A program made the translations under genes and the position numbers. A DNA stretch of 64,000 bases from an uncultured Ruminococcus sp. (GTDB lineage: Bacteria; Bacillota; Clostridia; Monoglobales; Monoglobaceae): contig CACXES010000052.1 of assembly GCA_902766745.1 (NCBI GenBank), positions 1 to 64,000 of the forward strand. The letters are read 5' to 3'. The notes beneath the pieces are model-generated. The model did no database searches. It was not told the origin of the DNA and saw only the letters and a program-made list of their open reading frames with translations. The stretch's first letter is position 1, and each line of letters begins with the position of its first letter. Positions 31,440 to 34,896 of this stretch are shown here, piece by piece.

Positions 31440-31549
31440 TAAATTATAAGCTTATTTAAATTTGATTTACGCATACAATAATTATATAAAAAATGCGGAT
31501 ATAAATATCCGCAAAATTATAAAATTTATACTTAAGGGGGATGTCAATA

Positions 31550-33652
31550 ATGACATATCTGGAAACAGCGGCTCCTATTCTTGTATTGTGTGCCGCAATT
31601 ATCGGTCTTGTATTCGCCGTATGCAAATTCTACAGCGTAAAACGATGTCCCGAAGGAACTGCCGAAATGGCTAACATTTCCGCAAAGATCCGCAAGGGTG
31701 CCATGGCGTATTTAAAGCGGCAGTATAAAACCGTATCTGTATTTTTTGTTGTAATGCTTGTTATCCTCATAATTATGAGTGCGGCCGGTGTGCTCACATG
31801 GTTTGTACCCTTCGCATTCCTGTCCGGCGGCTTCTTCTCGGGTCTTTCCGGCTTTGTGGGAATGAAAATCGCCACCTACGCCAACAGCAGAACCGCTAAC
31901 GGCGCAAGGGAGGGACTTAACAAGGGTCTTAAAATTGCATTTTCCAGCGGTACCGTTATGGGTCTGACCGTTGTAGGCCTCGGACTTCTTGACATAAGCG
32001 TATGGTTCTTGATACTTCGAGCCTTCTACGGCAATGACCCGTCCTCAATTACGGGCGCAATGCTGACCTTCGGCATGGGCGCAAGCTCCATGGCTCTGTT
32101 TGCCAGAGTCGGCGGCGGTATCTTCACCAAGGCGGCTGACGTTGGTGCTGACCTTGTCGGCAAGGTTGAAGCCGGCATCCCGGAGGACGATCCCAGAAAC
32201 CCCGCCGTTATCGCCGATAACGTGGGCGACAACGTAGGCGATGTTGCCGGTATGGGTGCCGATCTTTACGAATCCTATGTCGGCTCGGTTATCTCGGCTG
32301 CCGCTCTCGCCGCTGCCGCAAAGCTCGGCATGGTCGGTGTAATTGTTCCTATGCTCATCGCAGGCATCGGTATTATCTCATCAATCATAGGCACCTTCTT
32401 TGTAAGCACCAAGGAGGGCGCAACACAGAAAAATCTTTTGGGCTCGCTCCGCCGCGGAACATATATAAGCTCCATACTCTCCGCTCTCGGTTCGGCACTT
32501 TTGATATTCAATCTTCTGCCCGATAACAGCGGTGTGTTCTGGGCGGTAATCTCAGGACTTCTGGCAGGCGTATTGATCGGCTTCTTTACCGAATACTACA
32601 CCTCGGATTCGTATCAGCCCACACAGAAGCTTGCCGCCTCCTCTGAAACGGGAAGCGCAACGACAATAATCGACGGTCTTGCCCTCGGCATGAATTCCAC
32701 GGCTATCCCCGTTATAATCATAGCAATATCGGTTCTTATAAGCTACTTTGTATCGGGCGGTGCAAACAACTTTGCGATGGGTCTTTACGGTATAGGCATT
32801 TCCGCAGTCGGAATGCTCTCGACACTCGGTATTACCCTTGCCACCGACGCATACGGTCCCGTTGCCGATAACGCCGGCGGTATTGCCGAAATGGCAGGGC
32901 TTGAATCCACTGTCAGAAACCGCACCGATGCCCTTGACTCTCTCGGTAACACAACTGCGGCAACGGGCAAGGGCTTTGCGATAGGCTCTGCGGCACTGAC
33001 CGCTCTGGCTCTTATCGTTTCCTACACCGACAAGGTCGAAGGCCTCGGCGGCGTGCTTAATTTGACAATTACCAACCCATCCGTTCTGATCGGCTTGTTT
33101 ATAGGTGCGATGCTGCCATTCCTGTTCAGTGCGTTTACAATGAAGGCTGTCGGCCGTGCGGCACAGAAAATTGTTGTTGAGGTACGCCGTCAGTTCAAGC
33201 AGATAAAGGGTCTTATGGAGGGCAAGGCAGAAGCTGATTACGAAACCTGCGTTGACATCTGCACACGCTCATCTCTGCACGAGATGATTCTCCCTGCCGC
33301 TCTCGGTATTATCGCACCTATTGCAGTAGGTCTTATTCTCGGCGTTAACGGTGTTGTCGGAATGCTTGCCGGTGCTCTTGTTTCCGGCTTTGCAATCGCA
33401 ATTATGATGGCAAACTCCGGCGGCGCATGGGACAACGCAAAGAAATTTATCGAAACGGGTCACTTCGGCGGCAAAGGCTCCGACAACCACAAGGCAGCCG
33501 TTGTTGGCGACACAGTGGGTGATCCCTTCAAGGATACCGCAGGCCCCTCGGTAAATATTCTTATCAAGCTTTTAAGCATGGTATCTATCGTATTTGCCGG
33601 CGTTGTTGTGAAGTTCAACCTTATAGATCTTCTGACAAATTTATTCAAGTAA
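31550..33652 (+). CDS. hppA: Membrane ion-pumping pyrophosphatase
   Basis: 700 residues with about sixteen membrane helices; hydrolyses pyrophosphate and pumps H+ and/or Na+. The substrate-binding segments are [25 protein letters not shown] and, near the C-terminus, [14 protein letters not shown]. The [10 protein letters not shown] segment has Ala at the position that is Lys in K+-independent enzymes, so it is predicted K+-dependent. The semi-conserved Glu falls in DLYESYVGS, as in Na+-pumping members, though ion choice needs assay. The start is the ATG at 31550, 8 nt from GGGGG; an ATG at 31541 abuts it. Confidence 0.96.
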
Positions 33653-33667
33653 ATTTTCAGACCTGTC

Positions 33668-33706
33668 AAAAATGCGGAGCGGTTCACTGGCTGTTCCGCA
33701 TTTTTG
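33668..33706 (+). terminator. Terminator of hppA
   Basis: AAAAATGCGGA (33668-33678) pairs with TCCGCATTTTT (33695-33705) right after the hppA stop. Confidence 0.88.
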
Positions 33707-33707
33707 A

Positions 33708-33997
33708 ATATAAAATATTATTTAGTCGATTGTAAAATGTGAAAACGCAAAATTGTGGATAATCTTCCAAAAAGTATAAAATATTACATTGCCGACCGGG
33801 AGCGGCAGGTCGGAACAGGGCTTCGGGCAATTAATTCAAAATATTTTATACTTTTTGCCGTGCAGTCACTTCGTGACAACTTCCTTTGCCGCATAGGAGC
33901 ATACAAGCGGAGAAAGCATACAAAACGGAATTTTAAAATATCCTAATTTTACACACCTTTTCACGTTTTACAAACGGCTGATATAAAACATTATTTA
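33708..33997. repeat. Nested palindromic element flanked by 17-bp direct repeats
   Basis: Two 17-bp direct repeats (33708-33724 and 33981-33997, one mismatch) bracket about 256 bp. Within: terminal inverted repeats at 33730-33745 and 33958-33973 (15 of 16 matching), a perfect 17-bp inverted repeat at 33769-33785 and 33840-33856, CCGACC/GGTCGG in the centre, and GTCAC-TTC-GTGAC near 33865-33878. No convincing coding frame. It resembles a miniature non-autonomous mobile element or a folded RNA gene, and fills the gap between hppA and the AraC gene. Confidence 0.65.
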
Positions 33998-34017
33998 TTC
34001 CAAAGGAGATGTAAAGG

Positions 34018-34896
34018 ATGCTCGATTACTGTCTTGACATATCTGACAATTCAAAATGGGTTATATGCACCAAGCCCGACATAGCACGGACACTGCCCTT
34101 CTACATTACCGAAGCGGGCGAATTTTTCGCCGGGGGCAGATATTATACCGAGCGTGACGGTCGCTCCGGCTGGCAGCTTATCTACACGGTATCGGGTGCG
34201 GGCCGCCTGACTGCCGACGGAAACGAAATTGCTCTTTTGCCGAACACGGCTGTAATCCTCCGCTGCGGCGAGCGGCACCGCTACGAAACGGTCAAGCCTC
34301 CGTGGCACAACCTATGGATTCACTTTGACGGCAGCGGCGCAGGCGGCTACGAACGCCTTATAAACGATGATAAGTATCACGCAATTCCCGTTGCAAACAC
34401 CGGTGATTTTGAGTCGGACTTCATTAATCTTCTGAATCTGTCAAGCAAGAACGACCTGCTGACCGGAGCACTCATTTCCGATTGCATATCACGGCTCATG
34501 ACCGAGCTTCTGACTCAAAAGCTTCGTCAGGCTCTCCGCCCCGAGGGCACGGACGGCCGTTATCCCGAGCTGCGCGCCGTGCTTGATTTTATACATAAAA
34601 ATTACGGCCGAGCCATAACCATAGAGGATATGACCGACCGCATAAACATTTCAAAATATCATTTTATTCGTATATTCAAGAAGCAAATGGGCGTAACCCC
34701 CTACGAATACCTTACCGATTACCGTATCAATAAGGCGAAAATATTGCTTCGAACAAGCTATAAATCCGTCTTTGAGATTGCCTGCGACGTAGGCTACAAA
34801 AGCAAGAGCAACTTTATCTCCAAGTTCCGTGCCGCAACCGGCACAACACCCGCAAAGTACCGCCGCGAAAATATCAGCGTCAGCAGCTCCGATTGA
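34018..34896 (+). CDS. AraC-family transcriptional regulator
   Basis: 292 residues: an N-terminal cupin-like sensing domain (about 40-130, with GWQLIYTVSGAGRLTADG and a metal-like GERHRYE segment) and a C-terminal pair of helix-turn-helix units (about 190-287) matching AraC/XylS (ISKYHFIRIFKKQMGVTPYE and VGYKSKSNFISKFR). Family members of this shape control sugar-use genes, but no sugar genes adjoin, so its target is unknown. AAAGGAG precedes the ATG. It stands alone, converging on def. Confidence 0.9.
   Translation: MLDYCLDISDNSKWVICTKPDIARTLPFYITEAGEFFAGGRYYTERDGRSGWQLIYTVSGAGRLTADGNEIALLPNTAVILRCGERHRYETVKPPWHNLWIHFDGSGAGGYERLINDDKYHAIPVANTGDFESDFINLLNLSSKNDLLTGALISDCISRLMTELLTQKLRQALRPEGTDGRYPELRAVLDFIHKNYGRAITIEDMTDRINISKYHFIRIFKKQMGVTPYEYLTDYRINKAKILLRTSYKSVFEIACDVGYKSKSNFISKFRAATGTTPAKYRRENISVSSSD

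Follow-up and report, generated by a model that had tools for sequence, protein, structure and literature searches.

A mobile inverted-repeat element found, nearly always in one orientation, just upstream of Shine-Dalgarno motifs in rumen 'uncultured Ruminococcus' genomes

A short element with inverted terminal repeats, which we call element A, is mobile, and nearly all of its copies lie the same way round, with the right end towards a gene and just upstream of the gene's Shine-Dalgarno (SD) motif. This placement suggests that whatever moves element A aims at the SD signal. One copy lies in the window, the whole stretch of 64,000 nucleotides that we analyzed, between a terminator-like repeat that follows a membrane pyrophosphatase gene and the SD motif of an AraC-type regulator gene. 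A first-pass annotation, made from the sequence alone, had offered two readings of this site, a structured RNA gene or a miniature mobile element that makes a long duplication of its target. It overlooked the standing of the inner palindrome as a separate element and the tie between placement and the SD motif.

The window copy and its relatives

The features of the window copy and its surroundings, in window coordinates, are as follows.

31541-33652, upstream neighbour of element A: membrane pyrophosphatase gene
33666-33707, forward strand: terminator-like inverted repeat behind the pyrophosphatase gene, outside element A (from the sequence)
33708-33722, no strand: left copy of the target duplication, ATATAAAATATTATT, 14/15 identical to 33981-33995
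33723-33980, forward strand: element A, 258 bp, its left-to-right direction being that of the downstream gene; copies in its own genome and genus
33723-33745, forward strand: left terminal repeat, TAGTCGATTGTAAAATGTGAAAA, from comparison of element A copies
33754-33762, reverse strand: TGTGGATAA, reverse complement of the DnaA-box consensus TTATCCACA, in the left arm of element A; a putative DnaA box
33768-33857, forward strand: nested element B, a perfect 18-bp stem round a conserved core; solitary elsewhere in the genome
33865-33877, forward strand: small hairpin GTCAC-TTC-GTGAC within element A (from the sequence)
33958-33980, reverse strand: right terminal repeat, reverse complement CAGCCGTTTGTAAAACGTGAAAA, from comparison of element A copies
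33981-33995, no strand: right copy of the target duplication, ATATAAAACATTATT, paired with the left copy at 33708-33722
34003-34008, forward strand: AAGGAG, SD motif of the downstream gene, 7 bp from the left joint (usual gap 3)
34018-34896, forward strand: AraC-type regulator gene with element A in its 5' leader (Pfam HTH_18, HTH_AraC, AraC_binding)

Comparison of copies shifted the boundaries given in the first-pass annotation by a little. The 17-bp direct repeats that it reported (33708-33724 and 33981-33997, identical at 16 of 17 positions) contain a 15-bp duplication with 14 identities, the additional TA being the repeat end, and the terminal inverted repeats (present at 33724-33745 and 33958-33979) extend to 23 bp (consensus TAGNCGNTTGTAAAANGTGAAAA), over which the window ends agree at 19 of 23 positions. 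The perfect inner inverted repeat measures 18 bp (33768-33785 and 33840-33857), and the hairpin with a TTC loop and the AraC-type regulator downstream are both present as described. The DnaA-box-like match recurs at the same left-arm position among element A copies and is exact in 14 of 30; positions 33754-33762 match the reverse complement of TTATCCACA perfectly.

Element A has many copies in its own genome (2.85 Mb, 166 contigs), where we found 46 full or partial relatives at E ≤ 0.001 and 43 matches to the terminal-repeat pattern with up to three mismatches, compared to one match for the reversed control pattern. These numbers exceed what chance would give, as does the RNA fold, with a z score of -5.1 and none of 200 shuffles as stable; the stability of the fold is explained by the inverted repeats. 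At the same tolerance, genomes G001 to G005 yielded 31, 19, 9, 3, and 2 matches (control pattern: 0, 2, 2, 0, and 1), and G004 and G005 appear to hold few or no copies above background, barring one perfect end in G005. When no more than two mismatches were allowed, five genomes among 51 from the order contained the pattern and none the control. By blastn, 7 of 38 family genomes matched, G014 among them through the core of the inner element alone. An exact-pattern scan of a genome collection returned six stretches, which came from the 'uncultured Ruminococcus' metagenome-assembled genomes (MAGs) RUG10604, RUG12270, and RUG13671 and from one 'Clostridia bacterium' MAG. By these searches, the family is restricted to its own genus, consisting of rumen 'uncultured Ruminococcus' MAGs, and one neighbour genus (G005), in which the single right arm inspected (L057) has no adjacent SD motif.

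Pairing of ends in the fetched loci gave 34 candidates for complete copies, from which one pair with a spurious left partner (L113, 86 bp) was excluded. The remaining 33 are 164-401 bp long with 23-bp ends. For three loci with an ambiguous end type (L067, L110, and L118), orientation was set by hand from the inner arm sequences. Interiors vary widely between copies, and other copies hold other inner hairpins; element A is a shell with changing contents.

The inner palindrome is a second element, B, that has dispersed separately and also occurs alone (e.g., L013, L016, L017, and L018). The 50 distinct B sequences in the fetched loci have two cores and several different stems. Their stems match within a copy (16.66) better than when shuffled (mean 12.37, maximum 13.72 of 100), a difference of which kinship could explain part. 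Further B loci, alone or nested in A, include L021 and L037. A GAAGCG-GAA-CGCTTC hairpin stands directly before B-like elements in L013 and L037, with GAAGCG-AAA-CGCTTC in L039, as if it were a landing site.

Target duplications and empty sites

The left and right flanks of the 33 complete copies, compared in register, resemble each other far more than mismatched pairs do, with a mean score of 7.39 compared to -0.25 for shuffled pairs (maximum 0.94 in 200 shuffles). A score of at least 10 was reached by 14 of the 33 copies and by 0.09% of mismatched pairs. Among copies with clear duplications, duplication length is about 8-15 bp.

For eight insertions we joined the flanks without the element and the second repeat and searched the genus with the joined sequence. 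For five (L095, L101, L127, L099, and L121), the orthologous site in a sister species is uninterrupted and has the SD motif in place, and in the two clearest cases (L099 and L101) the sister species carries one copy of the target followed by the SD motif. Among the empty sites, L140 is diverged in the target stretch, L147 is short of 5 nt at the joint, and L151 differs at the joint by an unrelated stretch of ~15 nt. The search of the genus returned no uninterrupted sister site for L106, L126, and L124. Nor was one found for the window copy: 22 of 38 family genomes matched the query, nearly all matches outside its own genome being to the pyrophosphatase side alone, because in relatives the AraC-type gene is not next after the pyrophosphatase gene. 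The first-pass reading as a miniature mobile element that duplicates a long target is supported by copies in the genome and genus, by duplications elsewhere, and by empty sites for five of the eight tested insertions.

Some insertions are common to sister species (L119/L132, L094/L122, L110/L118, and L111/L129/L133) and are therefore older than the species split. A near-identical subfamily in G002 (L121, L124, L126, and L127) looks recent. Runs of N inside the copies L126 and L127 of this genome are masked or unresolved assembly.

Placement beside Shine-Dalgarno motifs

We scored an SD-like motif as AGGAG, GGAGG, or AAGGGG and typed solitary right ends by base 7 of the end, ignoring the flank. 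After removal of nine of 57 right-end loci as the same insertion in sister species, such a motif lay 8-24 nt outside the right end in 42 of 48 non-redundant loci (51 of 57 before removal), compared to 11 of 480 control windows further downstream and none of 42 non-redundant left ends (0 of 45 in all). A start codon opening a reading frame of at least 50 amino acids followed 20-41 nt past the right end in 39 of the 48 loci, and inspection of translations indicates that the downstream genes are diverse. In 18 further loci, which cover the remaining pattern matches, 11 ends were typed as right, and the strict motif stood at 6 of them. The other five are L216, with AAAGGA; L222, with AGGGGG; L221, which runs into a piece of another repeat; and L223 and L226, which have none. 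One end typed as left in this set (L227) has an SD motif outside it.

The joint itself is placed more narrowly. In 17 copies with clear duplications (score of at least 7; the sister-species copies L118, L122, and L132 excluded), the distance in target coordinates from the left joint to the AAGGAGG register was 3 bp in 12 and 4 bp in three, the outliers being the window copy (gap 7) and L111 (gap 10); the best AAGGAGG match was picked 4-32 nt from the right end, which leaves some freedom in the gap value. An ordinary, untargeted MITE, of which selection alone spares those copies that lie between promoter and SD motif in the tolerated orientation, is an unlikely source of this pattern. The 5' leaders are short and AT-rich, insertions within genes would disappear, and PMC10969869 describes the MITEs of other prokaryotes as mostly intergenic, all of which would suit such an element. 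However, selection leaves unexplained the 3-4 bp joint in 15 of 17 clear copies, the want of any left end beside an SD motif, and the near absence of copies behind genes; convergent gene pairs are instead the places where the pneumococcal elements BOX, RUP, and SPRITE are over-represented (PMC3049150).

Two copies suggest that a DNA motif is read rather than SD function. L069 joins with a gap of 3 to AAGGAGC, which is not an SD motif and lies just past the stop codon of an oppositely oriented gene, and L098 joins with the same gap to ATAGAGA at a gene's stop codon, where no gene follows in the orientation of the copy. A crude, ORF-based census of the window counted 51 AAGGAG hexamers, of which 11 are SD motifs and seven are other non-coding occurrences. 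With these proportions, choice of the motif plus loss of intragenic insertions predicts more non-SD copies than the two of 33 seen (L069 and L098), and more than the hexamer may be read at the target. The anchor seems to be the SD motif and not the transcription start, since the distance from the promoter -10 box, placed by eye, to the joint is ~15 nt in L099 and ~47 nt in L127.

Recognition of the ends, the proposed mobilizing enzyme, and known systems

The terminal arms show no sign of being maintained as an RNA helix. In 30 copies (L118, L122, and L132, which repeat insertions of sister species, were left out), arms of the same copy had no advantage in pairing over arms shuffled between copies (16.40 and 16.53 Watson-Crick pairs; 18.70 and 18.71 with G-U pairs), and an A·A mismatch at arm position 7 is conserved in 27 of the 30. 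At the gathering score, no Rfam family matched 13 loci carrying copies of A or C (family C is described below) or the window, except a tRNA elsewhere in it; matches of the window stretch at loose E-values are weak, fall below the gathering score in eukaryotic families, and were set aside as chance. An RNA gene is thus an unlikely reading of the outer element, and the structured-RNA half of the first-pass proposal goes unsupported. A riboswitch-like regulatory leader spread by duplication would fit the stable fold, the position in 5' leaders, and the nested hairpins, yet we give it very little credence, given arms without covariation, widely varying interiors, diverse downstream genes, and the blank Rfam result. 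Conservation of the ends as sequence leads us to infer that they would be recognized as DNA.

We propose, as a fairly probable account, that element A is MITE-like and non-autonomous and depends for its movement on an enzyme encoded elsewhere, which would be anchored on the AAGGAG motif. Like MITEs, it is short and non-coding, has terminal inverted repeats, duplicates its target, and has moved in many copies. A trans-acting enzyme would recognize the ends as DNA and dock on the purine-rich AAGGAG; one strand would be joined to the left end at a fixed 3-4 bp from the motif, and the other to the right end at a point set by distance, about 8-15 bp upstream of the first joint. A left joint set by the motif and a right joint set by distance would result in fixed orientation and variable duplication. 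Because AAGGAG in non-coding DNA is mostly an SD motif, insertions would fall in 5' leaders, and because promoter and SD motif both stay intact there, they would be tolerated. Element B would have been inserted into A or carried within it.

No autonomous copy, that is, no terminal-repeat pair enclosing a gene, was found in the loci examined, and when terminal repeats within 3 kb of each other were paired in search of autonomous partners, the partners were chance ones only (6-8 mismatches). The element ends matched nothing in plasmids and phages, and viral contigs held no exact terminal repeat. Among six carrier genomes, which are drafts and may lose repeated genes, so that a missing domain carries little weight, DDE_Tnp_1 was detected in one, Cas1 in none, and reverse transcriptase in two; these domains do not track with element A and were rejected as its mover. 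The scarcity of reverse transcriptase in these drafts also bears on an RNA-mediated route, in which leader RNA would be inserted beside the SD motif by target-primed reverse transcription or reverse splicing. That route would account for an orientation fixed along transcription, a variable duplication length, and the excess of solitary right ends over solitary left ends in the loci examined, but the inverted repeats are conserved at both ends and neither a tail nor a series of 5' truncations was established, and we regard it as improbable.

Several known systems share features with the proposed enzyme-moved, motif-anchored element. IS900 inserts in one orientation between SD motif and start codon, and IS900 and the IS110 family are not known to have terminal inverted repeats or a sizeable duplication. 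IS900 (IS110 family) of Mycobacterium avium subsp. paratuberculosis inserts at translation-initiation signals, its target CATGNNNNNNTCTCCTT being an SD motif and then a start codon on the other strand (PMC8141618, where Doran 1997 is cited). Element A shares this niche at translation-initiation signals; however, IS900 is a full insertion sequence, whereas A, bounded by inverted repeats and by duplications of 8-15 bp, lies upstream of the SD motif, and we rejected membership of A in this family on account of those repeats and duplications. MITEs and the Correia, ERIC, BOX, and RUP repeats are likewise short and non-coding, with inverted ends, duplications, and repeats within repeats, but none of them, as described in the sources consulted, combines a joint at a set distance from an SD motif with an orientation fixed relative to the gene; Correia elements are located upstream of genes but bring promoters. 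Variable duplications are also described, in PMC2266710, for the IS4 and IS231 subgroups of the IS4 family (10-13 and 10-12 bp), a likeness to A. Derivation from the IS4 family was rejected, the ends of A being TAG and not -AATR or CAT, and DDE_Tnp_1 occurring in one of six draft carrier genomes. A casposase makes a 14-bp duplication in the case studied, where a sequence motif lying outside that duplication determines one joint but not the other (PMC6614799), much as would apply to A. Casposons, however, encode their own integrase, and a casposon origin was rejected with Cas1 found in none of the six draft carrier genomes.

Our literature search, in a library with few subscription journals, found no equivalent inverted-repeat element. 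Short inverted-repeat elements are a known kind; the new part is the fixed orientation together with anchoring at the ribosome-binding site. Few transposons are known to choose their targets in a way that spares genes. Where an insertion falls between a promoter and a ribosome-binding site, the gene can still be expressed, with a leader longer by ~165-400 nt, and element A could rewire the expression of many genes in the genus. The enzyme, if found, would insert DNA into 5' leaders at a sequence-anchored position and in a fixed orientation.

A more specific version of targeting, which we hold only tentatively, is a transposition machinery that targets the ribosome-binding site itself: it would read the SD motif, possibly with the transcription or translation initiation complex, and insert 3-4 bp before it in one orientation, and initiation signals would be a general landing platform in the lineage, for element A and also for a second family, C. 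Family C is unrelated to A, ~175 bp long, and without obvious inverted repeats (L062, positions 255-440, G000:C25; L118; and L171-L200), and it occurs in all five genomes of the genus (29, 13, 36, 37, and 12 matches). Of 31 right ends in 30 fetched loci, 29 contain GGAG and run straight into a reading frame of at least 80 amino acids. At left ends, an SD-like 4-mer falls within the last 20 nt in 22 of 25 cases (background 20%). From these flanks, family C seems to lie between SD motif and start codon and to supply an SD motif of its own.
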